From Circinella minor (taxonomy: Eukaryota; Mucoromycota; Mucoromycetes; Mucorales; Lichtheimiaceae): DNA of 64,000 nucleotides. This document shows positions 2,906-64,000 of the stretch, piece after piece; positions within the stretch are counted from its first letter, which is position 1, and every line of letters begins with the position of its first letter. The stretch lies in assembly GCA_016758965.1 (NCBI GenBank), contig JAEPRB010000147.1, positions 38,996 through 102,995 of the forward strand. Direction: 5' to 3'. Made by a program: the position numbers and the translations under genes. Below the pieces are notes generated by a model that was not told the DNA's origin, ran no database searches, and saw only the letters and a list, made by a program, of their open reading frames with translations.

Positions 2906-5900
2906 ATAATAATGTTTTTATGAGGTTTACAATCCTTTACTCTTTATTGTCATTCAAAGAGTATAATAATTAACAATAACAAGGTCTTCTTTTTTGAGGG
3001 GAAATTACTTATTATTTTATATATCATTTTTCTTTATTTATTTATTTATATATACGCTCCTTCCTTTTAATCTTTCTTTCTTTCCTCTTCATTGAATTAA
3101 ATCTACATTGTATTTTTCTTTCTTTTTTATTACTTATACTTTGTTTAAAAAAAACTTCATTCCTATTTAATTCCCCTATTTCCCCAAAACCTTATTATCA
3201 ATCACTCTTTTATTCTATTATGATTTCTCTTTGGTTTATTTCTACACTGATGATATGACCAATTTATTACTACTATTATTACTATTATTTTTATTGTTAT
3301 CATTATGGATTAAATTTATTTATAATAATTTGAACTACTCCATTCTTTAATTTATTGATTTAGTTCAATTTTTTTTGTCACTGATATCAATCCACTTTGT
3401 TTAATATATAATACAGTGCTATTTTTTTTTTTTAGTTTGATTACCAGCTACCTGGAAATCAAATGTTCTTTTCTTCTACTTCACCCCGCAAATGTGTAAC
3501 CTTACACAAACATAAAGACGTGGCCACGTGCTTCGATTAAAAAAAATCGTTGACATGTGCACATGATTTGTATGATATTATCTTATGAAGAACATACCTA
3601 TTGTAGAATGACCAGAAAAGATAGATGAATATATCAAAATATAAGTATCTTAACATATATATATATAAATAACTCTTCTTTTTTTATTTTAAACTATTAT
3701 ATATATATTTTAATCCAATACCAATTCCTTCTACTTGATACTTCTCCGCAAAGATCGGCGAACATGCGCTCCGAAACAAAACAAAAAAGAACTTGAATAA
3801 ATGGGTTTAAATGAATAACTATCGTCAAAAGAAAAATGTACAGCCCTTACCAATTCGGTCTTTAGAACATTTGTGAAAAAAGAAGTATACACGATTTTTA
3901 TTAATGATCGGCGGGCCTATTTTTTTTTTTTCATATTGACCTGGGATATTTTTTGAAGTTGACACTGGAGGGACCAGATGATGGGTGTATATTTAGATAT
4001 TAGCAGATTTCGTGATTCTTTGAGGGTCGGTATGAATTTTATTTCCATAGCAGCATTTGTTACTATTTTTTTTTGTTTTACTAATTGGGATGCTTTTTTT
4101 TCATAAAGCTAGATTTATTTGTAAATAATGATCCTTTTTTTATAAAAAAAAAAAAAACTGCAACAATAACAATGATTTTATTAAAATATTAAGAAAAAAA
4201 ACTACAGCATCTGCTCCTCAAGGAGACACTGATGCACAAACGATAGTGAAAGCTTTATTCACCTTTGATGGTTCTTAAGAGTAACCAGAAATGCAACTTG
4301 TTCAATATATGGTATTAATGTTGAACCGTAGGATAAAAGCAAATTGAGCTTAATGCCGGCTTTACCTTTTGGAACTAGAACTCTTCAATAGTGATAAGAA
4401 AACAATTATAAGCCGACAGATATAGTATAGTAAATCGTACTTGACGACAACACCCTTCATGTATCTTTTGTGTCTTGTGAATACTAGTGTTGTTCCTGAT
4501 TTAAGCCCTTCTTCCATTCATATTATTTTTCTTTACGATCTTCATTAATACTCCAAAAAAAATCCAATAAAGTGCTACATCCTCGTATCAGTTCTTAGTA
4601 TTTGACTCCCAGCCTTCACTTTCTTAAACTTATAACTTATCATAACCTTCCGAATAAGTATGTATTACTTAAACATCAATGGCAACAATATCAATATTAG
4701 TGACAGATCAATATGATTAGCCTATTAGTATACGAAGTTAAAAAAAAACTATAAATGACAATAATTTTTATGACCAAATAAAAAAAAAGTAGGCTTGATT
4801 CCCTAATCGTGATTCTTCAATAACCAGAGATGCTTTTACTGTAAAGCTGTAGTAGAGGTAATGCTGATCTTAGCATATTTATAGCGAGTATGTGGTGAAA
4901 CCCATAGGCTGTACCAGGGCTATAATTTTTCTGTCAGTTCTATTAAGCTACGTAGAGCAATTCAAAGGTGTAGATATGACAACGGACTGATTTGTTTATG
5001 TACCTCTTCATAATCAGTTGAGTTTCCATGGGTGCTTGTTTGGTCACGGTATCACCTTCTCTCTTTGACTATTTTCTTCTTCTTATTTATTGCCATTGGG
5101 TGATTCGACAGTAGATAATAATAATAATAATAATAAAGCTTAATTTGTATATTGTTTTATTTTTATATGAAAAAAAGAAAGTGGTTCAAGATTTAATGAC
5201 TAAAAAACTTTATTTCTGATGAATTAAATAAAGTAATTATTCATTACTAAAAATAAACAGATATCTAATAAATGCTCTTAGCTTCAACTTAAAAAAAAAA
5301 CTTACGTGGACAGAACACTGCCACGTGGATTATCGGCATCTTTTTAATATGTTGAAGATACAAAAAAATACCTTTTTATATACATCTTTTTGTTTTTAAT
5401 TAGAACTAGATCCCTGTTAAAACATAAAAGAACACCTTACTCGCTGTTTAATATTAGCTAAAATCAAAAAAAGACAGTAGCTATTTTTCGATTTTGAATT
5501 TAAATAATTTGTATACTTCTAAATGTGACAAATAAAATGTTTTATTTCAATACGAACAAAATGATTATTCAAATATGTATAAGTATTAAACTGGTCATGT
5601 ACGAAAATGAAATTCACTTATAATGGATACGTAAACAATAAATCTTTCACAAACAAACTTAAGCAGACATAGTAACAAAAAATCTCCTTTCAAGTGAAAT
5701 TATTTATAAATTCTTTTTTCAAAATAAAAAGAAAAGAGAACAATGGCATTAAAGCATGTTTGTTATATTCATTGGTGAATATAATTAATTGAAGTATTTG
5801 TGTGTATAATTTAATACGTATAATAAATGAAAATGAAAAAATAAGATGATATGAGAAAAAGGAGAAGGGAATGCAAGAAAAATAAGAAATAGAATGAATT

Positions 5901-5940
5901 TGTTTGATAGTGTAAGTTGTCTAAATAAAACAAGTATGAA
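2906..5940. other. AT-rich intergenic region, no clear gene
   Basis: About 3 kb between the convergent ends of the aldehyde dehydrogenase and COQ7. It holds poly-A/T runs, a short TAA microsatellite near 5117-5136 and no long frame. Two short coding-like scraps occur at 4201-4278 (+, 26 codons ending in TAA) and 4259-4381 (-, about 40 codons). Neither has a convincing start or family match, so I do not call them genes. Confidence 0.6.
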
Positions 5941-6688
5941 TTAGACGCGTTCTGCGACCCAAATAGCTGTTTTACAACCCTGCATAATAACTGCCTTAAG
6001 TGCTGAATGGAAAGGAGCTTGTCGTGCATCATGTTCAACTGCAATATCATGATGTTCAAGTTCTTCATCTCTAAATTGAGCAATAGTCTATATATGTATA
6101 CAGACCGTGTTTAATATATTGTCACTTTACCCCAAATTTATCCTTTTTTTTTTTTACCTTGCCTAAATCCTTCAATTCAGGATTCTTTTCCGTAAGTTGA
6201 ACCAAGCTACGTAGTTGATCATCATAATGATTACCAATGACTGTTTCTACAGCTTCTGTACATGCCATAGCTGCTTCTTTACCCATCAATGCAGTTCCTG
6301 CACCGACAGCAAACCCGGCAACTTCCCATAAAGGTCGTAACAAACTAGGTCGAACTCGCATATCACCTACCAATTTGTCAAAAGTTTCTAAATGGTGCTT
6401 TTCTTGATCCCACATTTCTTGTAAAATAGGTCTCAATTTTTTATCTCGTCCAAGAACAGCGATTTGACCCATGTAAATATAGTAAGCACCTACTTCACCT
6501 GATTGATCAACACGAATCATTGGGTCTAATATTTGACGTTCATTTTCTGTTAACATTTGTTTTGGTTTCTCTCCATGTTGTTGCTGTTGTTCACTGAAGT
6601 TGGTGATTGTAGTTGAGAATGCTCGGTGGCTAGTTTTGTTGTTGCAAGTAGTTAATCCAGAACGTAAACGACAAAATGCACGTAACAT
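5941..6688 (-). CDS. COQ7: COQ7 / CAT5 demethoxyubiquinone hydroxylase
   Basis: Di-iron monooxygenase for the penultimate hydroxylation in ubiquinone synthesis, on the matrix face of the inner mitochondrial membrane. Two exons: 6688-6158 and 6087-5941; AAG|gtaaaa joins ag|ACT in phase 0, giving 225 aa. The N-terminus ([10 protein letters not shown]..., rich in Arg, Ser and Thr) reads as a mitochondrial presequence. Diiron ligands fall as expected: Glu65 in DQSGEVGA, E96 and H99 in DQEKHH, Glu148 in [11 protein letters not shown], and E186 and H189 in DEELEHH. An upstream in-frame ATG at 6739 would add 17 residues ([10 protein letters not shown]...); I prefer the 6688 start because it puts the presequence first. 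The CoQ assignment is secure. Confidence 0.96.
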
Positions 6689-6739
6689 TTTTGTTTTTGT
6701 TTTTGTAGATAAAACGTACAAAAAAAAGTGGCGAGACAA

Positions 6740-7723
6740 TATTTTAAACTATATCTTCTAATAGCGGACTTACGAGGGGCAGGATCCAAGCTGCTGTAGG
6801 ATATGCAAAAAATTTCATATTTTCTATGAGACGACTTACACTCACTCGCTTTTAAAAATTAGTGCTGTTGTGTTTTTTCGTTGTTATACAATATAGTGAT
6901 ATTTCAGCCACAGACCCAAAAGTGTTGTTATATCAGCGAAGCAACCGCTGTTTTATTCTATGACAATTAACAAAGATATCAGATTGCACTATTGTAGGTG
7001 TTGTAATAGGTGTCTAGCAGATCCCCATGGGTATCTATCACCAATTATCAATCGTATACTGGGTCGCAAAATCTATCATTGATCACGAAAAATATAAGAA
7101 ATCATCAAAAGTTTAAAGCACACCCTTTTTATTGAACTATTCTTGTTGAAATACACGATAGTTATATAGGTGTGGACATTACATAAAAGTGGTTTGTCCC
7201 TTGTACGTCTGTACCTAGTATACAGTGTTTATAGACTTAGCTAAGCAAATCAAAGTAGTGTTGCAACTTCACTTTTTTTTATACGTATATAACTCATAAG
7301 TTAAGCTACGTAAATAGAAAACTAATCCCAGGAGTGTTCTGTAGTAAGTCCACTACAGAGGTGTTGTTTAACAACATGAGTTCGTACATTACTTCGGTGA
7401 TTTTATCGATCTGGATTTGATAGATTTTTTTTTATTTTGCTATATACTAGACAGCAAACACGTTTTATTTATAAACACATAAATAATAGCAATTCGTAAT
7501 GATTATAATAAAAAAAAAGTAAATATATTATATGCACATAACTTCAGCAGGGGAAGGGGAGATTATTGGTCTTGCTTTCAAAAAATATTAAAACAAGAAA
7601 GTATACAAAGAAGTTTTTTTTTCATTATAATTTATATGTGATTTCGTGAGTGAAAATGGGCGGTATAGATTGAATAAAAAGAGCGTTGATATGACTAAAA
7701 AAAAGGGCAAACACATGTAATAC
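6740..7723. other. Intergenic, nothing recognised
   Basis: About 1 kb between COQ7 and the GPI-type protein, with AT-rich sequence and poly-A/T runs. A 15-codon open stretch at 6774-6818 (-) looks coding-like, but the only splice it could use would leave a 16-nt intron, so it is not counted. Confidence 0.55.
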
Positions 7724-9909: not shown

Positions 9910-11557
9910 TTACTGGCCACCCATCATCATACCTTCCAAACCAGCACCACTTTCAACTTGTTCCTTGGCAAACATTTCGAAATACTAATATAGCAATGGT
10001 AATAATAAACAAAGTAAGTTTCTTTTTGTTTTCTCATCCAACCCTCTCAGTATCACTTGTATTTGTTTTTTTTTCTTTTTTACTTTACCTGGAAGATAAT
10101 GGTGACACACAGTAAAATACCAGTACCAGAACCAATAGCACCAACCATATCAGCCAAAACAGATACAGCACCAAGACAGGCACCACCGAAGGAGGCTGCA
10201 ACAGGAATAACACGCTTTAATTCTTTATACATGGATGTATCACGGTAGCCTGCAATAACAAGTTGCTGTTCCTTGAGTTGACGAGCAACATCACGAGGAG
10301 ATGAACCAGAAACTTCAATCCAGGTCTTGGAAAGCAATGCACAACCGGCCAACATGATGCTCACATAGACGACAGTGTGGATAGGGTCCAACAAAGCATC
10401 AGTTACGTTGCGAGGAGCTGAAAGATAATAAGCCAAACCACCCCTGGCAAACAATTGAGCGGATCCTTCCATAGGTTCCCAAACACCCAAAAGTCTGACC
10501 AAAATGTTATCTTCAAAACGCTTGTATAACATTTGTGAAATCATAAAAATGTTGGAGGTCATGGTGGATTGGAGCATAATAGGCATGTTGGAAGTATAGA
10601 ACAGTTTGATTGGGTATGTACCACGTTGACCACGAACACGGTTTGACTTGACAGGTAATTCAACACGGAAACCTTGCAAATAGATGACAACAGCAAAGAT
10701 GGCGGCTGTAGCCAACAAATTCATGACATTGGGAAGAGGAGCACGATAGAATGCTTCCTTCAATGCACGAGTCTTATCTTTGCGTGACATTACCAAGTGA
10801 ACCAAGGCAATAAGAGCACCTTCAAATTCGTCACCACGACCAGTGTTGATGGTAGTAGGAGACAAAGCCTTCCAGAAGATGGTTTCACAAATATTGGTGG
10901 CAATAAACAAGTTGATACCAGAACCAAGACCATAGCCCTTTTGCAAAAGTTCATCCAATAACATGGTGATCAAAGAAGCAACGACAAGTTGAATAATGAG
11001 CAATAAGCAAACACCAGCACCAATTTCTCTGGGACTACCATACAAACCAGTAAGTACAGAAACGGTAGCGTGACCAAATGCAATAATCATGGCAAATACT
11101 TTTTTTTTATTACAGAAAATGGATCGTAAGTTTTCGCAAAAATTCCTTGTTCCTGTTATTTTGCCCCTTCAATTCACTTTATCCACCCCTCCTTTTCTGT
11201 TTTTTGTTTCCTTCCAACAAAAAAAAAAAGTTACTTACATTTTTGTGCACCACTAAATAATGCACGATCTTCCTTTAAGCTATAGTCCACTTCAATAATG
11301 TTTGCACCGGACAAGAGTTGCATAATCATACCAGAAGTAACAATAGGTGTAATACCTAATTCCATAAGAGTACCTCGGTTCGAGGCAAGAATAACTCTCA
11401 TCCAGAAAAGAGGATCAGAAGAATCAGATGACATGATACCATAAAGAGGCACTTGAGACATTACCAAGAAGATGAAAAGAGTAACTGCAGTCCACATGAC
11501 TTTTTGATTGAATGGAACCTAAACAATAAATATTGTTTTAACATTTTAAAATTTTCA

Positions 11558-37291: not shown

Positions 37292-38006
37292 GTCTGAATG
37301 GATATTATGTTTGAACAATGATAAAAAAGAGAGTAAAATAAAAAAAAAAGAAGAAAAAGAACAAACAAATAAAAACAAAAGTCTGTATCATTATAATGCA
37401 TCTCGGAGAATCAAAAGCATATTCCTCAAAGCTCGTACACATTAAAAAGTACTATCTGGTCATGCTAGTTGTCTTTCCTGATCTATTTTGCGTAATATGG
37501 CGCATTGAAGTTCATCTGCTTTCATTGGGTGTATGAAAAAAATCTATCCCGCTCTTTTTTTTTCACACGATCCATTAGTTTATTTATACTTGAGCATACT
37601 ATAAACCACATGATATTTGCTATTATCATTGTTATTATTGTTGTTGGTACGTTTGATGGAAAGTTACATATTAACCACAATATATGATGGATCAGCTGAA
37701 TTTGGATGGTTTTTCTTTTTGTTACTATTTCCATTTAGTTATTAATCAGACACACTATAATCATGCTTATTATCGATAGTATACAATGATTGATAAATGG
37801 TTGTTAACCGGGTCTAGTTCATATTATAATGACGATTTTCATTGAACAGGAATATAAAATATTGATTTAATTGGCTGACATGGAAAGAAAAAAAAAGGAC
37901 CCGACTAAGCGACTATTGACTACGTGGCATTAGTTAATCCTCCCCTTTAAAGCTCGCTTTAACTCTTTCTTATTTGTCAATTTTGTACAATTTTGTAGCT
38001 TTCAAA
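37292..38006. other. Divergent promoter region
   Basis: About 700 bp between the divergent DinB-like and glucosidase II genes. It is AT-rich, with GGCTGACATGG (37873) and ACGTGGCA (37922) strings but no confident motif. No gene is seen. Confidence 0.5.
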
Positions 38007-41000
38007 ATGAAGTGGGGACAACGTTGCCTTTCAAGGTTTCATGTCCTCTTCACACTTGGTCTTGTGTTTACATTAACTACAACAACACTTGCCATGAAGA
38101 AAGATGATTTTAAAACTTGTGCACAATCCGGATTCTGTCGTCGTAATCGAGCTTATGCCGATATGGTGACCGAAACTGGCGATTCTTTTCAATCACCTTA
38201 TACGCTCATTACAGATAGTGTACGAACCGAAAAATCACATATTTATGCCGACGTAAAAAATACAGAATCTGATATTTTATTGACACTGGATGTGTACGTT
38301 TTGCAAGACAACACAGCACGCGTCCGTGTCAATGAAAAACAACCTATTAAGCCTCGCTACGATGGTCATGGAAAGCATACCTTACAAGCTGAACCTGTAC
38401 TTCAAGAAGAATTAGATAAAGACGACGTGAAAACAAGCCCTGAAGGTGTTGTTACTATAATTATGAATGACGATAAAACACGTAAAATTGTTATTCATCC
38501 TAATCCACTTCGACTCGAATTTCTTGTGAATGATTCACCTGTTATTTCGTTTAACAATCGAGGTATTTTTAACTTTGAACATCTTCGAACTAAGGAGTCT
38601 CATAAACCCAAAATGATCCAACACGACAAGGATAGTGAATCCACTGAAGAGAAAGAAGCACCTTGGGAAAGTGGATCATGGGAGGAATCTTTCAAGACCT
38701 GGACGGATCCAAAACCCAATGGACCAGAAAGTATTGCTATGGATATCACGTTCCATGACTTTGGACATGTCTATGGTATTCCAGTAAGTTGCTTTGTATT
38801 CCATATATGTATATACATGTGTGTAGCAAAAAGATTATATTTGGGTTATTTAACATGGTATTAAACCTATTCATTTTGTTTAGGAACATGCTTCCAGTCT
38901 GTCGCTTAAAGAAACTCGGGGTGGTGATAATGCATATACTGATCCTTATCGCTTATACAATACAGATGTATTTGAATATGCAGTAGATAGTCCAACCTCT
39001 TTGTATGGTGCAGTGCCTTTCATGGTTGCTCATCGAGTGGGCCAGTCAGCTGGTGTCTTCTGGATGAATCCATCCGAAACATGGGTCGATATCGTTAAGT
39101 CCAAGAGTGAAGAAAAGGTACGAAAAAGTTTATCTAATATGTCATATAAAGCAAATCCTTACAAGAATCAAGTACATCTAACTATCTTTGCTTTACATAT
39201 AATAACTTTTTTAGAGCTCCGTCCAAAAGGTATTGAGCTTTGGCAAAAAGAGTAATGATAAGACTTCAACCCATACACATTGGATTTCAGAAGCTGGCGT
39301 TCTTGATGTATTTGTATTCTTCGGTCCAACGACCAAGGATGTTATCCGTCAATATACCAAACTGACCGGTACTCCTATGCTCCCTCAGCAATTTTCTCTT
39401 GGTTACCACCAATGCCGTTGGAATTATATCAACCAAAAGGATGTTCTGGATGTTGACAATCAATTTGATGAACATGATATGCCCTATGATGTTATTTGGT
39501 TAGATATCGAATACACGGATGACAGAAAATACTTTACATGGGAAAACAATAAATTTCCTGAACCTATAAAGATGGAACAAGTCCTTGATAGCAAGGGTCG
39601 AAAGGTAAAAATAAAGAAAGGTGCATGATAATCATGTAATATGGAGTAACTAACACTATTCGATTTACATAAAAAAGCTTGTCGTCATCATTGATCCTCA
39701 TATTAAACGTGCTGATAACTATCGTATTTGTGAAGAAGCAAAGAAGGATGGATTATTTGTCAAACAACCTAATGGTAATGATTACGAAGCTTGGTGTTGG
39801 CCTGGTCAATCTTCTTGGGTCGATTTCTATAATCCTGAAGCTCGTGAATGGTGGAAGGAACAATTCACGTTCAACAAATTTATTGGTACCCAAGAAAACG
39901 TGCATGTTTGGAACGACATGAATGAACCTTCTGTTTTTAATGGTCCTGAAATTACTATGCAAAAGGAAATGATCCATCATGGGAACTGGGAACATCGTGT
40001 GTTGCATAATCTCTACAGTTTGCTTTCTGTAAGTTATTCTTATTATTATTTCAATAATATCGATTCATTTATTTATTGTTGCTCGTATACATACGTCCAT
40101 ATATAGTTCCAAAGCACTTCTGATGGAGTTCGTGAACGTACAGTAGTTGAACATCGTCCTTTTGTACTTACTCGAGGTTTCTATGCTGGTGCACAACGTT
40201 ATGGTGCTGTTTGGACTGGTGATAACATGGCCGATTGGGAAGCTCTTTACTACTCAAACCCAATGTCTTTGACAAATGGTATGGGTGGCATTGTATTTAC
40301 TGGTGCTGATGTTCCTGGATTTTTCAACAACCCAACATCCGAATTACTTGTTCGATGGTATCAGGCTGCTGTATATCAGCCTTTCTTCCGTGGTCATGCC
40401 CACATTGATACCAAACGACGTGAACCTTATCTTGTTCCGGAACCCTATCGTAGTATGACGTTAGCTGCTTTACGTGAACGTTATGCTCTTTTACCTTATT
40501 GGTACACTTTATTCTATGATGCTTCGCAAGTGGGAACTCCTATGATGCGTCCCATGTTTATGGAATTCCCCGATGATGAAAGTTTATTTGCCACTGAAGA
40601 TCAATTCATGCTTGGTTCTGGTATTATGGTCAAACCTGTCACCGTTGAAGGAGCAACTAGTACAGAAGTTTACTTTGCTGGTGACGAGGTAAAGCTTATT
40701 TTATACACAATAGGGGAATTGAGAAAATGCTGAGAGGATAGAGGGGAAAATATTTTTTGACTGACAAATAAAACGCATTTTCGTTATAATAGCCATGGTA
40801 TGACACACTTACTCATGCCATCGTGAAACTCACTGGTCGTCATGATGTCAATGCACCACTCGGCAAGATTCCTGCATACTATCGTGGTGGTAATATTATT
40901 CCTCGTAGAGAACGTGTACGTCGTAGCTCCCATAGCATGAAACTTGACCCGTTCACTTTGGTCATTGCTCTTGATACCCAGGTAAACAATGTTTTTATAC

Positions 41001-43734: not shown

Positions 43735-46250
43735 TCAACATACATGGCTATCACTACTGTTTCGCTCACTACTATAGTATTTAGCAACAGAATGTGAATC
43801 GGATGATGATGAAGAGGAAAGCTGTCCATCATCTGTTTGCGATAATTCTTCTTGTTTACGGCGTCGTTTACTACTACTTACACGTTCTTTCCGTCGGCCA
43901 CTTTCCGTTTTTCGTACATTGATTGTTTTGTCATTTGATGAAGATATATCATTATTACTATGATTACTTTCGCTATTATTATTATTACTATTATTGTGGT
44001 TGTTATTACCCGTTTCGCCCGCCATCATGCTGACGGGTTCGTCGGAAAAAATCACCGTGCGTCGATGATGATTATGAATATGATGATCCCCAGATAATGG
44101 TGGTGGTGATGAAACTGAGGAAGCAAAAGATGTTGCACTATCTTGTGATGTAGCTGAAGCATTTGAAATCCATGATCGTCGGACATCATTATCATTAATA
44201 TCATCAGGTAATACACCTCCAACACCACTAAAACCGGAAGAAGATCGAGAACGTTGTTTTTTCACGTGGGTAGGGTCGTGATGTAAATGATGTTGATGCT
44301 GATGTTGTTGTTGTTGCTGCTGCTGTTGCTGAGGTGGTTGAATTAATAAGGACCGACGTTTGGCACGATATTGAGAAGGGCGCATTGAAGGGGGTTCTTC
44401 CACGCCACGACGCGCTGGTAATGATCGTGAACGATTCAACTGCCGTTGATCTTCATATCGTTGTGCAACCATTTCATGCGTTTCACCAAGTTGTGGGGTA
44501 GATGGACTATTACTATCATTACTTGTAGAGACCGACTCCATATCAGACATACCGAGATATTCGTAGTATGAGATCGATATGGGTCGAATATTGCGATAGA
44601 CAGTGCACATTATGAAAACATATGTTGTCCACAAAAACGTCACTGCAATAGTCGCATTGATATATGTTGCTGGATCATTTACGTAATTCCGCACATGACC
44701 TACCCATTGTACATTGGCTCCCATAAACAAAATGCCAACTGCCATGGCAAGAAAAGATGCGAGTAGACCGCAAATAATCGTAATAGACGCGAATATCCAT
44801 TTATGTTTACATGATCCATTAGATGATGACTTTCCAGTAAGTTGTTGAAGAGTTGCATGATACGCGTCTGTTCGACCTGTTTCCTCACCATCGTCACTAA
44901 AATCTTCATTATCGTTGTCATCGTTTTCCATTATATTTCTGTTCGATGCATGTGCCATGAGGCGCGGTAAGTTATCAGCAGGTGATTTTCTAAACATAAT
45001 TTGTAATATTCTCGCTACAGAACCAATGATCAACATGTGGCCGAGTACACTATGAATTTGCGCGGAAAAAGGGTCGTTTTGTGTAAAACCAGAGATAATT
45101 GCTAATTACATATCGTTTAAAAGGAATAATCAGTTTCTAAGTTGGTCAAATTAAATCATCCAACATGTATAGTTCCCACTCCCATAACGATACATATATG
45201 TATAAATGTATATGCGAGTCATTTTACCCCACACATAACATTTAATTAAATTAAGTTATACATACCTCTGCCTGTCAAACAAATTATTAAAGCATTAACA
45301 ATATTTCGTTCACGCAACGCTGGCATCCATGTTTGTAAGCTAATGGCAACTGAAAATATACCTCCTGCACACCATAATAATCCAAGGTTGATAGCCTGCC
45401 AACCTGATCCAAGAATTGGTGTACCTATTTTTATCACATTATATAATTATAATAAGATTTAATTATTTCTCCCTTAATACTCACAATAACCACCAAATAT
45501 GGAGCAAAGAAAAACAATAAAACCAGTCAACCGTAACCCCTTACCTGATGCTATTAGACATACCAATCCCCATAATATTAGAATGAGACCTTCATAATAT
45601 TCGGGTGTTGATGATCGTGGTAATGAAAATAAGTTTAGTAAATGTAATAGAACAAGCGATCCATAACCAAGGAAACCACTTCCAATAGCAATAGGCATCA
45701 AGCATTGACCACCAGAAGCAGAAGAAGATGATGAGCAACTTTCAGTAAATACCATAGCTGCCACAACAAGATATGCATAACCGACGATCAAAACAATCCA
45801 TCCAATCGCCAAATGAATATTTTCTTCTGGTAATATCCGTCCGAACCATGAAGAAGTATCTAGTTCGAACCATAACCATTTTTGTTGTTGAAGTTGTTCA
45901 GGAGATTGCCGATATTGGTACAAGCCCAAAGCGACTTGGCCAAGAATAAGTGCGAGTAAAGTGTAACCGAGAATTCCAAGTATAACTCGAATTAGAGTAA
46001 GTGTTTCGCCATTGGCAGGAGTTGTTACCATTTGAGCAAACCCACCAACAATGAAACCGACGATGGCAATAACAAATCCAGTGGCGAGGGTATAAAAGTG
46101 ATATCGACGATGTCGGCGCGTGCCATAAATAAGAGCAAGAGGATAAGAGCCAAGAAAAGCAAGAGCCATGAGTGAGTAGTGTAGGATGACAATGGGTTGA
46201 CGGATTGGCGCATTGACGGAGAAAGATTCGCCAGGCACTTGTTCGTCCAT
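43735..46250 (-). CDS. YTP1-like multispanning membrane protein (DUF2427 + Ytp1 domain)
   Basis: 763 aa in three exons: 46250-45485, 45424-45266, 45101-43735; phases T|GT and G|CA close. The N-terminal half has about seven hydrophobic spans, starting HYSLMALAFLGSYPLALIYG, with a cytochrome b561-like look (DUF2427). The middle and third exons contain the Ytp1 block (GSGWQAINLGLLWCAGGIFS, then NDPFSAQIHSVLGHMLIIGS with conserved His). The C-terminal third is soluble, with Ser-, Gln- and His-rich low complexity including a poly-Gln/His run (44286-44331). The family is fungal and of unclear function; homology to cytochrome b561 suggests haem-linked electron transfer, not shown here. The start is the first ATG before the first span. 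Confidence 0.85.
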
Positions 46251-47104
46251 AACTTTTTTTTTTGTAATACTTTTTTAGACTAGAAAGTAATATAGCATCC
46301 AAAAAAAAATTCTTTCCCCTTTACGCAAAGAAAAATATTGCAACTTAGGGATCGAATTGGGTAAATAAAAAAAAGTTATCTTTTAAAATGAAAGGGAAGG
46401 AGCAGTTGAGTGAAGAAAAGAAGGAGAAGAAAAAGTGTAACAAATACCTCATAAGTATCACACAAAACAATATAATCAACTTTTATTCATTTCATTATTA
46501 TGTTTTGCTTTCAGTCAACATGTGCCAAAGACCAAATCAGGCAAGGTTAAGGCGAGCGGAGCGTTGTTGTGTGGGATGCTTCTATATGTGGTCCGGACCG
46601 AAAGCTTGAATTTCTTTTTTAATACATTTTGCAGTTCGTATACACATAAACAATTGATGCATAACAAAAAGAAAGAGGGAAAGTGAAAGAAATAGATTCA
46701 TGGTCCATACACCCCTCTCTTTGTTTCTCACATTATTCACGAAAACAAAAAAAGTAATATTGACTAACATAGAAGATAGTGCACATAGTAGCATAGCAAC
46801 AACAAATTACAAAGTAACACATGGCAAACGATCATTGTCATCCTGAAAATTCATCAGGTCCCATTCTCAGACATTTGTTTTCTGTATTGATTTTAACAAT
46901 AAGAAACTCATTATCTAAATCTATTACATTTTTTATCGAATTTTTTCATTGTCGCACCAAATAGACAAGACAAGAAATCTTTTCACGCGATACATCATTT
47001 TTAATTTGATCGTAAAAATAACATTATTTGCTTTTCGTTTTTTGAGGGCATGATGTTTATTAATAGGATGATACGGATACGCAGATAATTTACATTTTGT
47101 AAGT
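46251..47104. other. Intergenic, nothing recognised
   Basis: 850 bp between the YTP1-like and Rieske genes. Poly-A/T-rich with only short frames; it must hold the 3' end of the Rieske mRNA. Confidence 0.5.
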
Positions 47105-55250: not shown

Positions 55251-56622
55251 ATGGATACTATTGACAAACCCAAACTTCCTTCTATTCAACTGATGCTCCA
55301 GGGTATCGGTGCTGAAGGTAACTTGATAATTTTCATATTTTGAAAAAAAGTTAACGAGAAAAACCAAACTAACGTAATTCCTTTTTTTCTCTCATGATAA
55401 AATAGAAAAAACAGCGACAACACCAAATGAGCATCGAGTCAGCAGCAGCGGGCATAAGCGCCATGCATCTGACCTGATGACCAACTCTGTCCCTTATTCC
55501 ACTCACCCCTCATCTCATGCTCCTAGGAGTTTGTTTCCTCATCCAGAAATGACAGCAAGTGGGTTACCAGGACATATGCAAAAGTTATCCATTTCGAATT
55601 CGACAACACCCGTTGCACCTATTGAACCTAATCTTCATCAACATCATCATCATCATGAATTAGCCCCACCTCCCTTACGACCTACAGCTCAAGGATATCA
55701 TTTCCAATCGCCTACATCAATGTTATTACAACAGCACCGATCTCCTCGAAATATGCACTCGCGTTCCTTTTCTGATTATTCTCATCCATACCCAACGCCG
55801 CTTTATTCTTCATCACCAGCAGCTCCGATGATGCGCGACGGTAGCACGACCAACAACACCAACAACGCTACTACAACAGCTACAAATACCACTTCTGTTA
55901 ATAATACGAGGGCTCGGCCCCAATATTTACAGACTTCCGGGTATCATCGCCGTGCTATCTCAACGAATACTTTGGATTTGATTCTTCAGCCTACTCTGCA
56001 ACGACCTATTGATTACCATAGCAATAACAATAATCAGCAGCAACAACCCCCTCAACTTTATGCTTCTTCTTCCACGACTACCACTACGACAAGTACAAAT
56101 GCTACACCTCAATCGCCTATTATGAGTGATGGTGGAGATAGTGAAAGCCATCATTCGGACTCAAGTGATAAGCCTAGAAAAGAAGCTGGTAGTAACAAGT
56201 ATCATTGTCCTTATTGTGATAAGGGATTCAGTCGTCCATCCTCTCTTCGTATTCATACTTATTCGCATACAGGTGAAAAACCATTTGTCTGTCCTGAACC
56301 TGGTTGTTCAAGAAAGTTTAGTGTACAAAGTAATATGCGACGACATTTACGTGTTCATCGTCTTGGTCGTGCTACAAAACGTTCTAATACTACTACGACT
56401 ACTACATCACCATCAGCAACAGCAATAGCGAGCAGCGGTAATAACATGGATTCGACGACAATGGGAACAACAATGGATCGTCGAGTATCCACAAAACCTT
56501 TAGCTGTAAAACCAGCAAGTTGGGATCAGCCACAAGAACATTATCATCTTCATCATCATCATCATCAACAACAACATTTATCAGCTTTTAATTTGCCCAG
56601 TTTGATTCATGATGAACAGTAA
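55251..56622 (+). CDS. C2H2 zinc-finger transcription factor
   Basis: 427 aa in two exons (55251-55317 and 55406-56622, G|AA). The N-terminus (MDTIDKPKLPSIQLMLQGIG) has the short LPSI-type motif seen in several fungal C2H2 factors. The middle is low complexity (His, Pro, Ser, Asn, Thr). Two adjacent fingers lie at about residues 288-341: YHCPYCDKGFSRPSSLRIH then a TGEKPF linker and FVCPEPGCSRKFSVQSNMR, ending in RRHLRVH. Fingers contact DNA in the major groove. The C-terminus is His/Gln-rich, ending NLPSLIHDEQ. The long pyrimidine-rich leader is common for fungal regulators. The target pathway cannot be told from sequence. Confidence 0.92.
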
Positions 56623-57980: not shown

Positions 57981-58793
57981 TTAAGACACGGTCATTCTGG
58001 GAGCTAGACGAATAACAACCACCAACCCATCATTTGATGAACCAACGATTGCTTCTACTGCTTGAGTTGTATTATGTTCTTTATCTATAATCCAATCAAA
58101 TCGCATACGCATGATCATATCCGATCCTTTGGTCATATCCAATTGTTGTTGAACGACTTGTCCATCCTTATCACTAACATAATCCAATAATGGTCTTCCT
58201 AAAACTTGGTCACATTGTACTCCTACCAGTCGTTCCGCCATTTGTGAAACGAAGACAATGGTTGAATCCTCTGTATAGCGATTCAATATCAAACAAAAAC
58301 GAGGTTCTTGAATATGTGTCACTCGATTATTGATCCATTGATGGTGTGTTTGTAATGATACTCGCATCCGTTCCTGGCTATCATTCCAAGCACCTATTAA
58401 CTCTAGAGAACCATCATCGCTTACGATAAACACTTCGTCTACCGAGTTGCTGCGAATCTTGTGCCCTACATTGTTTGGATCGTACAAATAGTTTGTACAC
58501 ATAAGTAAATCGTAGCAGTAATGAACCAACGTTTCAATAGTGACATAATGACCATCCTTGTGACGTGTTCGATAAGCAACCATGGATGACATTTTCTCAT
58601 TCATAACGTTGGCTGAATGGACACGCGTCAATGCGTTAATGTCGCTGGGATGAAAAAACTCGTAAGCACCTTTTCCTACCATTTCATCTGGTGTATAACC
58701 TAGTACTTCACAAACACTTTCGGACACATAGATTAAATTAGCTGCTGCTGTGTTGTCATATATTGAAATGTAGTTCGGTGTATTGCTCGCCAT
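57981..58793 (-). CDS. Two-PAS-domain protein without visible effector domain
   Basis: 270 aa, single exon, unusual in this intron-rich window. The first PAS fold covers about residues 8-120 (NLIYVSESVCEVLGYTPDEM, then GKGAYEFFHPSDI); the second covers about 160-265 (TIVFVSQMAERLVGVQCDQV, then GRPLLDYVSDKDG). No LOV photoreceptor cysteine motif, zinc finger, bHLH or kinase follows. PAS modules sense ligands or mediate partner binding, as in white-collar and related fungal regulators, so this protein probably acts through a partner. The start at 58793 (MASNTPNYISIYDN) directly precedes the first PAS strand. It is convergent with the C2H2 factor. Confidence 0.85.
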   Translation of the reverse strand: MASNTPNYISIYDNTAAANLIYVSESVCEVLGYTPDEMVGKGAYEFFHPSDINALTRVHSANVMNEKMSSMVAYRTRHKDGHYVTIETLVHYCYDLLMCTNYLYDPNNVGHKIRSNSVDEVFIVSDDGSLELIGAWNDSQERMRVSLQTHHQWINNRVTHIQEPRFCLILNRYTEDSTIVFVSQMAERLVGVQCDQVLGRPLLDYVSDKDGQVVQQQLDMTKGSDMIMRMRFDWIIDKEHNTTQAVEAIVGSSNDGLVVVIRLAPRMTVS

Positions 58794-59062
58794 GTGTTTA
58801 TATTGCGTTTATAAAATGGTGAATAATGTATAATATTAGAATGATAATAGCAGTAACAATGTGGTAATAGTAGTAAAAAATAATAATAATAAGAAAGAAA
58901 AGTAAGGAAAAAAGTAAGAAGGGATATGTAAATATATAATATGACGGGATGCAAAAAGTTAGTTATACAGAATAGTGGGGGAGGTTGGGTGTTGGTTTTT
59001 AGTCAATAAAGGTAAGACAAAAAACAATTCTCTTTTTTTAAGACTAGTGGTTATTGGAGTAC

Positions 59063-61218: not shown

Positions 61219-62581
61219 CTTTCAAAGAAATGTACATAAAAGCTTCGTGAAATCTCGATGGAGACTGTTCAGGTACCAATATGTACCCTGGGTGCCACGT
61301 ACGATTAAGTTTATGCGTGAACACATAGAAGCGGATATTATCCTAGTCCATTACGATCAAATAGGGGTTTCAAGATCGTTTTTTTTTTCATTTTTGAAAC
61401 CCCCTAATAAATTGTTGTTCTTACGTACATAGTTTTTACATATATCAAAGAAAAACACAGAACTACGTTTTCATATAATTAGAGTATTATGTATTAATTA
61501 AGAAAAATAAATACTGAAAACAATGAATAAATGTATGAAATACTTACAGAAGTGGAATCAAAAGTAATTTTGTCAAGCATTCTTACTTATTTCAGTAACA
61601 CTGAGCAGGCCTTTTTGTGAATGATATATAATAAAACTATAACTGATGTTAAGCCAGCTAAATATTGTAGCAATCCGTATTATATACTACGTAGCGTTCG
61701 CTCTCGAGAGATGCAATATTGATGATCAAAAACATTTGTTAAATCATTTGTTAATATCTTGAACTTTGACAAAGAGTTGAGAAGTTATTTATTTATTATG
61801 GAAGAGGAAGTGACTTTTGTCTATAGAAATGTAGCTGCGCCCTTGCGGTACAAAGGGATAAGGAAATGCAATAATGAATTTTAAGGGCTTTGATTACCAT
61901 AACTAACCTCCTTTTAATTGGAAAGAAGTTTGATTTGAGTAGCTTGGGAGAAAGTAGACTTTGCTTTATGCCTGAAATATTCTGAGTCTGTATTTTTAAA
62001 GCTATGTGGATTACAGAAAAGTTGATATGCCATCCTCTTAAAAAAATGTAGTGGCTCCAGTGCAGAAATTGTAATAAAAGTACATTTATTATAAAATTTA
62101 ACTGGATAGGGAATATGTATATGCTCTTTGTGTAGTAATTATATAAAGCAGTTAAACAACCTATCCTTCTGTTAAACTCTAATAGTAAATAAATCCTTAA
62201 CTAGCTATTTATTCATCGATTGTTACTTTTTTTTTTTGTTTATATATTCAATCAGAACTTTTTTTACTAGGTATAAAGATACGAATATATATATATACAT
62301 ATATATTCTATCAATACCAATCATTATTGAACGATAAGAACAATTGTTTTAGTACTATTAACATCGAAGATTAATCATCTTTTGTTATTATTAATAGCGA
62401 GATGTCACATGGTTTTATTGGGGGTTCTATATTGAACAAAAAAAAAATTACATAAGTGGTAAGGGAAAAATAATAGTAAAAGTAAAATAGTAAAGTTAGT
62501 AAATTTTTGCATTGTGTGCACAAATATATAGATATAAATATATATACATAATATACTTACTCCCCCCAGTTAGTTTCACGT
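58794..62581. other. AT-rich intergenic region with microsatellites
   Basis: 3.8 kb without a recognisable gene. Contains a TA run at 59066-59094, an (AC)n-(AT)n tract at 61165-61218, and an inverted repeat GGGGTTTCAA (61364-61373) and TTGAAACCCC (61394-61403) with a T-rich loop. A short frame at 61247-61432 (+) is probably chance. Confidence 0.55.
61165..61218. repeat. (AC)n-(AT)n compound microsatellite
   Basis: About 30 bp of AC followed by about 24 bp of AT, perfect or nearly so. Confidence 0.95.
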
Positions 62582-62605
62582 TAGAGTAGTTTTCCTGCTA
62601 CTCTA
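62582..62605 (-). ncRNA. Hairpin across the stop codon of the TnpB/Fanzor-like gene (candidate guide-RNA scaffold part)
   Basis: TAGAGTAG (62582-62589) and CTACTCTA (62598-62605) are perfect reverse complements with an 8-nt loop. On the gene strand the stop codon TAG (62600-62598) is inside the 5' arm. In TnpB and Fanzor systems the guide (omega) RNA comes from the 3' end of the gene and the DNA just beyond it. A hairpin exactly here is suggestive but could be chance. The RNA itself is inference. Confidence 0.3.
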
Positions 62606-64000
62606 GGACTTCAATGTCTTGTTGTTCTTCATCTTGATCAAATTCATCGTCATTAACATCCACAAGTGCCCTTCGATTGTTACCACGACTTAATGCCAAT
62701 GGACGAGAGTTAACATCACCATTGGATTCAATATATGCCAATAAAATTCTTCCAATGTTTCTTGCACCATTAATATCACGATCCAACAACTATATATATT
62801 GATAAATGTGTATCTTTTTTTATTAACTGCGAGCATAGTTATATATATATATATATAATGTTTGATTATTTACCAAATCACATTCATCACAGAATTTTAA
62901 TGCATAGACGTTTCGTCGAAATCCAACTAGTATATCATTTGATAAATATATAAGATATATGCGTAAGTTTTTCAAACAGATATAAATCCTTGATTAAAAC
63001 TACTATTACATACCAGCATCTTGTGCGTTGTCACATTGGCTTGTAGGCACCAAATTATCTTTTTCATCATCCAAGCACCAACATTGTCGCCGTGAATTGT
63101 TTCCGTTCTCATGAATTCTTCGAATCCTTCTTTTTCGGTGCTCACGGCAAACTTGAACACTACCATCGGCAGCCCGGAACATTCTTGTACGGCTATCATC
63201 ATAACTGCAAACAACGCTTGTTCTATATTCATCCTCTAATACCACTAACGTACGCCTTGCCAAAACAGCTCTAAAAGTCTATTACCATTACCCAAAGTTC
63301 TCTATAAGCTCATACATTCTAGTCACATTTAAAAATATCACTCCTACAGAAATTATAACTTACTTCAACAGGTAGAGGTTCATATGTTTTCATTGATGAC
63401 TTGAAACGACCATCACCATAACCAACTATCGTATGGTCCTCAAAACTATACCCAGGATGAGGCCGACGTGGCCTCCGGAATTGGCGGCGGTGTTGTTTTC
63501 GTTCTTCCTTTGATGTAGAGTTAAAAAATGGAAGAGGTGCCTAATATATCAAAAATGAATATTTTCAAGGTTATTTATGTCATGTTAATTAGAGATCATA
63601 TGAATGTGTCTTTATATGTAAAAAAAAATAATAATTACATCTTCGGGTTGATCTAGACCTATCAGCCTGTTGGCAAGATTTTCTAAAGCTGATTTTCGCG
63701 CCGAGAACAGTTTCAACAGAGTTTCTCGATGATAAAAATGACAGTTAAAACGGACGTGAATGCTAATTATCAACGAGCAATGATTGTAAGCAATCTCAAT
63801 ATGTAAATAACTAATATTATACTGATCTATAATATAAGGAAAAACTTACTCATTATGGGCAGCACTGAGAGTGTATATATATTGTCTGAATTGGTCTGCA
63901 GAAGAGACAGTTGCTGGATTCTGCATCAGCATATCGTAAACAGATTGAATCGGTAAAACTACATCTTCATCTGGATGGTGTCGCATGATTACATCGGTAT
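62598..64000 (-). CDS. TnpB/Fanzor-like RuvC nuclease (copy 2), 5' end beyond the window
   Basis: Six exons in the window, gene strand order: 64000-63850 (partial), 63762-63639, 63540-63364, 63278-63014, 62926-62874, 62789-62598. All junctions keep phase (GA|C, GAT|GCA, GAA|ACT, G|TT, TTG|TTG), with no in-frame stop. Motifs in order: basic helices (YHRETLLKLFSARKSALENL), RuvC-I TIVGYGDGRF, RuvC-II with the adjacent Ser/Cys block VVLEDEYRTSVVC, a Cys/His-rich insert, a second Cys pair KFCDEC, and RuvC-III LLDRDINGARNIG, then an acidic tail. This is the TnpB/IS605-OrfB and Fanzor arrangement. Fanzor proteins are eukaryotic RNA-guided nucleases. The N-terminus is outside the window, so completeness is unknown. 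Splice sites are inferred. Confidence 0.78.

Follow-up and report, generated by a model that had tools for sequence, protein, structure and literature searches.

The window, that is, the whole 64,000-nucleotide stretch of Circinella minor DNA analyzed here (bases 38996-102995 of contig C147, in a genome assembly of 46.6 Mb and 619 contigs), carries ordinary fungal genes between positions 6122 and 58808, where Pfam matches were obtained for seven of the ten frames scanned, out of 14 frames of at least 180 aa: COQ7 (6122-6748), SecY (10080-11168), the N-terminal domain of GH31 (37938-38864), a YTP1-like protein (43735-45105), DUF2427 (45474-46274), C2H2 zinc fingers (55378-56622) and PAS domains (57981-58808). 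Rfam returned nothing in the window at gathering scores. The window reaches to the right-hand end of the contig, where a gene on the minus strand, whose front part is unseen, continues beyond the assembled sequence.

This gene consists of six exons and five GT..AG introns (84-98 bp), all joined in phase, and runs for 319 codons from the contig end to a TAG stop at 62598-62600 with no internal stop. In the direction of transcription, the first exon in the window (63850..63998; TDVIMRHHPDEDVV...AAHN), cut by the contig end, is 99.5% identical to a copy on contig C407 and is followed, after an intron of 87 bp (63763..63849, GTAAGT..TTAG), by an exon at 63639..63762 (DIHVRFNCHFYHRETLLKLFSARKSALENLANRLIGLDQPED), to which contig C335 is 69% identical; an intron of 98 bp (63541..63638, GTAATT..TTAG) then leads to the third exon (63364..63540; APLPFFNSTSKEERK...VGYGDGRFKSSMKTYEPLPVE), which contains the motif GYGDGRF. 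Behind the third intron (85 bp, 63279..63363, GTAAGT..ATAG), the fourth exon (63014..63278) carries the glutamate of RuvC-II (LEDEYRTSVVC) and an altered first zinc pair (CSYD). The fifth exon (62874..62926), preceded by an intron of 87 bp (62927..63013, GTATGT..CTAG), holds the second zinc pair (KFCDECDL), and the last (62598..62789), preceded by an intron of 84 bp (62790..62873, GTAAAT..ATAG), holds RuvC-III (LLDRDINGARNI) and the stop, with a match to PF07282 in the same copy. An alternative start of the fourth exon at 63270 broke the frame, which is restored by 63278.

The exons had a GC content of 0.34-0.45 against 0.18-0.29 in the introns, all three frames are closed by stops in each of the five introns, and the coding sequence in the window lost its open frame in every one of 20000 base shuffles, a control that is lenient because the exon edges were picked so as to avoid stops. 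The public annotation of C. minor includes a partial protein, INT45_000990 (P0004), which starts at the third exon and shares the junctions of introns 3-5 with the window. P0004, encoded on a contig of 2316 bp, differs by one residue from the window over 228 aa and by one residue from a copy on contig C44, and therefore looks like a further copy. The gene model in the window is real, as supported by its in-phase exons and by the matching junctions of P0004. A preliminary description of the locus had likewise read five junctions in phase and no internal stop, and both readings hold; it had also called the gene apparently intact, a term which covers the last 319 codons only, since the window ends where the contig does.

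Upstream exons and Fanzor motifs

The last 186 bp of the window (63815-64000) recur on contig C407 at 99.5% identity, and there the frame extends upstream through eleven more introns and exons in phase, until the contig ends before any start. Extension to the right, proposed earlier as the way to the N-terminus, therefore stopped at the end of the window's own contig and gained eleven exons through this overlap, but a start codon has still not been reached. Window and C407 together give a joined model of 832 residues without a start, which is a composite of two near-identical copies, the front of the window copy itself being unseen. The C407 copy is broken: a dispersed repeat interrupts it within the intron equivalent to 63763-63849. 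This repeat (C407:21299-21814, locus L051 2300-2815) is built of 42-base tandem units and, counting itself, has 46 matches in the genome. The C44 copy, 98% alike to the window, begins in the middle of exon 3 behind a gtgcaaaaagcggg repeat. Judged by these identities (98% for C44, 99.5% over 186 bp for C407), the window copy is placed with both in a young set in which the first zinc pair reads CSYD.

Fanzors are eukaryotic relatives of the bacterial TnpB and Cas12 nucleases. In published descriptions, their RuvC-I contains DPG, a glutamate precedes the zinc finger (of the form CxxC..CxxC) by six residues, and RuvC-III contains RD (PMC10711439, PMC3627910). In the joined model, the RuvC-I aspartate lies in VFIDPG, with DPG at residue 459, encoded by an upstream exon on C407 outside the window; DPG is also found in P0003 and P0007. 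By motif order this sequence, VFIDPGIRSLVTAV (FIDPG), is the true RuvC-I, and the earlier assignment of RuvC-I to GYGDGRF was wrong. LEDEYRTS..C and LDRDINGARNI are present as they had been read, as the RuvC-II glutamate and RuvC-III. The glutamate stands six residues before a cysteine (E-YRTSVV-C), as in the E-alt definition (PMC10711439), and RD follows soon after the zinc finger (CDEC-LLLDRDINGARNI, in the joined order CDECDLLLDRDINGARNI). Of the paired cysteines previously noted, the second pair, CDEC, is complete and the first is CSYD, so that one of the four cysteines of the C4 finger is lost in the window copy (CSYD..CDEC). The strict published Fanzor regular expression fails because of this first pair, of the 221 residues from DPG to the glutamate and of the 73 residues between the cysteine pairs. 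The relaxed order DPG, E/Cys, CDEC and DRDINGARNI is present in the joined model of 832 aa and arose in none of 20000 shuffles; a weaker pattern limited to the part in the window arose in 31 of 20000.

Similarity to the Fanzor family

The profile PF07282 scored 21.5 bits against the window copy (residues 235-268 of 319) and 19.0 bits against the joined model, both under the cut-off of 26.3, and 30.6 bits, above the cut-off, against P0002, a protein of Circinella umbellata. The NCBIfam TnpB profile gave 12.4 bits where 100 are required. The HMM check that had been advised for the locus consequently succeeded with P0002, but not with the window copy itself nor with NCBIfam. Neither the sequence nor two family-alignment profiles matched any solved Fanzor or TnpB in the PDB at E up to 10, and AlphaFold models of the relatives P0007 and P0002 were too poor to use (mean pLDDT 37.0 and 39.4).

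A canonical Fanzor/TnpB-like gene is found elsewhere in the same genome, on contig C441 (locus L004 843-2042, minus strand, two open frames), with the motifs DPG, DEFKTSRICNIC, CKTC and RDVNASKN. It scores 41.4 bits with PF07282, and its other half matches the solved SpuFz1 (8gkh, E 0.0055); it fits both better than the window gene does. Aligned to this gene with hhalign, the window family gave two colinear stretches, LFN..I..DG...FIDPG and C..C..DRD.N...N. The region IETDGV..FIDPG scored 33.5 vs. 19.6 for the best of 24 shuffles, and the region from the second cysteine pair to RuvC-III scored 35.9 vs. 21.4 (24 shuffles), with low to modest probabilities (17.5 and 47.7%) assigned by hhalign itself. 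Statistical similarity to the Fanzor family is thus obtained through C441, with none of the 24 shuffles as high in either half. Together with the motif order and the PF07282 match of P0002, the two colinear stretches bear out the initial assignment to the TnpB/Fanzor family. The window gene is probably a Fanzor-family relative, and probably a Fanzor1, with one defining feature lacking in this copy; as to the type, which we infer, the size (832 aa without a start) and the Mucorales host fit Fanzor1 over Fanzor2.

The nearest relatives are all annotated as hypothetical proteins: INT45_000990 (P0004) and INT45_003991 (P0005, 67% over 24% of the part searched) of C. minor, and BDC45DRAFT_529052 (P0002, 34% over 97% of the part searched) of C. 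umbellata, which, in contrast to the window copy, has kept CSVC in its first zinc pair. No paper linking Fanzor and Circinella was found in the open-licence PMC literature.

Dispersed copies, decay and element ends

With E-values up to 10 accepted, a protein search of the genome returned 57 exon-level matches, including those of the window itself. Fifteen regions yielded 16 paralogous stretches besides the window, which were modeled with a purpose-written spliced aligner that reproduces the hand-made model. One or more stops or frameshifts were marked in 12 of the 16, some of which may represent misread intron edges, the models being automatic; the four stretches with neither (C44a, C335b, C102, and C45) are all partial. 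The window groups with the copies on C44 (two), C335 (two), C1 (two) and C182 in subfamily A; C102, C45, C26, C4, C33, C3, C105, and C21 constitute subfamily B, and C40 was placed in neither. The first zinc pair is without its second cysteine in all six readable subfamily-A sequences, where it reads CSYD (window, C44a, and P0004), CSYND (C335a) or YSYDD (both C1 copies). Five of the six readable subfamily-B copies have CSVC, and C105 has CSAY. P0002 and C102 show CSVC..CRHC, and the annotated P0007 has neither cysteine pair, perhaps via skipped exons.

Values of dN/dS were 0.26 for the window vs. C1b (161 codons), 0.44 for the window vs. C1a (227 codons), 0.59 for C1a vs. C1b and 0.51-1.03 among the seven subfamily-B pairs computed, a pattern that points to protein constraint in the past and decay afterwards. 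Comparisons with C335a and C21 were saturated in dS, and those of the window with other subfamily-B copies (dN/dS 0.17-0.39) were made at a dS of 1.4-3.2, too high to be trusted. Window and C44 are separated by one synonymous and two nonsynonymous changes over 197 codons, and with only three changes the constraint between them cannot be judged.

Rearranged sequence was seen around some copies. On C335 the last exon and the 3′ region are repeated in inverted orientation (about 92%) before the gene (locus L038 3624-3964 and 5913-6175), and on C26 (L043) an inverted copy of the gene's own 3′ end likewise lies before it. The minus strand of C102 also encodes, some 3 kb away from the subfamily-B copy on that contig, a diverged relative with a zinc ribbon that carries DEYCSSKLCCHC and CENCHKKFHRDRSAG (C102:39831-41198, L005 4832-6199; PF07282 24.5 bits).

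From the stop of the window gene, a 3′ region extends to the putative terminus of the element (62419..62597, minus strand; ending in AATATAGAACCCCCA), and the DNA homology between window and C44 stops at 62419. The termini of the window (AATATAGAACCCCCA) and of C44 (AATAAAGAACCCCCA) are alike, both resembling AAT(A/T)(A)AGAACCCCCA, and their flanks are different. In subfamily B, homology ends at AATAAAGAAC(T/C)CCA in seven of eight loci, C105 being the exception, and the flanks differ from there on. A short form of 1.35 kb is present at two places, on C45 and C3, which are 94% alike; at C3 it is flanked on both sides by CAGAAAG, a 7-bp target duplication seen at one of the three loci with a readable 5′ end, no such flanking repeat being present at C45 or C102. 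Dispersed copies with defined ends and a target site duplication (TSD) are therefore found for the family, and the window copy shows the 3′ terminus alone. No transposase was encountered incidentally.

The short form starts with a 52-bp sequence, beginning GAACGACCTTAAACATC, which recurs widely in the genome (C102, C153, C203, C171, C100, C477, C45, C3, and others), in some cases as inverted pairs (spanning about 390 bp on C100 and about 8 kb on C477); the front of the short form therefore seems shared with another element. Matches to the 5′ query started within the first 9 bases of this sequence in 19 of 21 cases. The 52-bp sequence probably belongs to another transposon as its terminal inverted repeat and also opens some Fanzor copies at their 5′ end.

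The 3′ region is the place where a putative guide RNA would be expected. It folded no better than shuffled sequences in any of five copies (z −1.3 to +0.7), and a structured guide RNA is accordingly unsupported by folding. Both subfamilies have in this region a G-run followed by a donor-like GTAAGTA (ACTGGGGGGA directly before GTAAGTA) and a terminal C-run (AG directly before AACCCCCA), located in the window at 62561-62570 and 62419-62426 on the minus strand and in L042 at 5780-5925. The two runs are able to pair, and the stretch between them resembles a 3′-UTR intron ending at the element terminus.

Interpretation and related elements

The end of the window very likely contains the 3′ part of a Fanzor1-type gene belonging to a decaying family of transposable elements in Circinella (Mucorales), a reading built on features that are directly observed: the gene structure, the order of motifs, the kinship, the dispersed multicopy family, its shared 3′ terminus and the decayed state of most modeled copies. 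By kinship, the protein would be an RNA-guided DNA nuclease that uses its RuvC D-E-D triad to cleave DNA to which a guide RNA has paired; this RNA would presumably come from the 3′ end of the element and the flank beyond it. The nuclease may have a role in transposition and would help the element persist. Guided cutting by TnpB and Fanzor is thought to favor the spread or upkeep of the element. As one zinc cysteine is lost and most modeled copies are decayed, the enzyme encoded by the window copy may be weak or inactive, though the visible frame of this copy is open. The proposal that the locus may encode a working nuclease appears too hopeful, given a 5′ end off the contig, the lost cysteine, 12 of 16 broken stretches and the lack of a guide-RNA fold.

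Partly overlapping with this interpretation is the possibility, which we hold as a tentative one, that the window contains a dead remnant only, i.e., a recent duplicate, 5′-truncated or otherwise broken and without a product, whose open frame reflects its youth. The interruptions of the C407 and C44 copies (by a dispersed repeat and behind the gtgcaaaaagcggg repeat, respectively) and the stops and frameshifts of the paralogous stretches are consistent with such an origin, and the three changes from C44 leave constraint beyond judgment; however, the 319 visible codons are free of stops, frameshifts and bad junctions, and the edge exon has a counterpart on C407 that continues in phase through another eleven exons upstream. 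It is also conceivable, if doubtful, that subfamily A is a Fanzor lineage in which the canonical CxxC half was lost (CSYD, CSYND) and which afterwards spread and remained constrained at the protein level, in which case the domain binding the target nucleic acid would use another set of ligands, or would have been re-purposed from cutting to binding. Still less probable is the domestication of a Fanzor as a host gene with a cellular role independent of zinc-dependent DNA cutting. Relatives in C. umbellata, Zychaea and Phascolomyces, a first zinc pair altered throughout the readable subfamily-A sequences and dN/dS below 0.5 when the window is compared with the old copies C1a and C1b would agree with it, but near-identical copies of recent origin, broken copies scattered through the genome and a short form that is mobile are transposon-like. 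That an unrelated zinc protein should match DRDxNxAxN by chance is scarcely credible, as the sub-threshold PF07282 and NCBIfam scores and the lack of a PDB match are countered by four motifs in the correct order, by P0002 above the Pfam cut-off and by two colinear C441 matches that each beat 24 of 24 shuffles.

Within the preferred reading, a decaying Fanzor1-type element, the Circinella family adds a sequence-divergent set of Fanzors that Pfam hardly reaches, with relatives in Zychaea and Phascolomyces and with all matches labeled as hypothetical proteins. If active, it would be a natural experiment on which portion of its zinc finger a Fanzor can do without; if dead, it would be an ordinary record of transposon decay.

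The Mucorales also include Parasitella parasitica. Its PpFz1 is a fungal Fanzor1 whose structure was determined together with guide RNA and target DNA (Cell 2024, PMC11423790), in contrast to which the Circinella family has no sequence match to any Fanzor chain in the PDB. SpuFz1 of Spizellomyces punctatus (Nature 2023), also a Fanzor1, is described as occurring in numerous copies, some complete, others partial or lacking the gene, with its guide RNA derived from the 3′ end; it has a CCCC zinc finger, inverted repeats and a demonstrated guide RNA (PMC10432273), none of which was seen at the present locus. The preliminary description had pointed to a nuclear, intron-bearing form, and the introns are confirmed; the occurrence of Fanzor1 in Mucorales is not new, having been reported in 2013 for Rhizopus, Phycomyces and Mucor (PMC3627910), and what is new is a divergent, mostly decayed family in Circinella. 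The Fanzor1 elements MCi-2, MCi-4 and MCi-5 of Mucor circinelloides, ROr-4 of Rhizopus and PBl-3 of Phycomyces are likewise multicopy (Bao and Jurka, 2013, PMC3627910); compared with them by description, the Circinella family differs in having CSYD and in that most of its modeled copies are broken. MCi-2, as reported there, resembles the Circinella family in combining a common 3′ region with different 5′ regions, and has TSDs and no recognized TIRs; its TSD measures 11-12 bp, against the 7 bp of the single Circinella duplication (PMC3627910).
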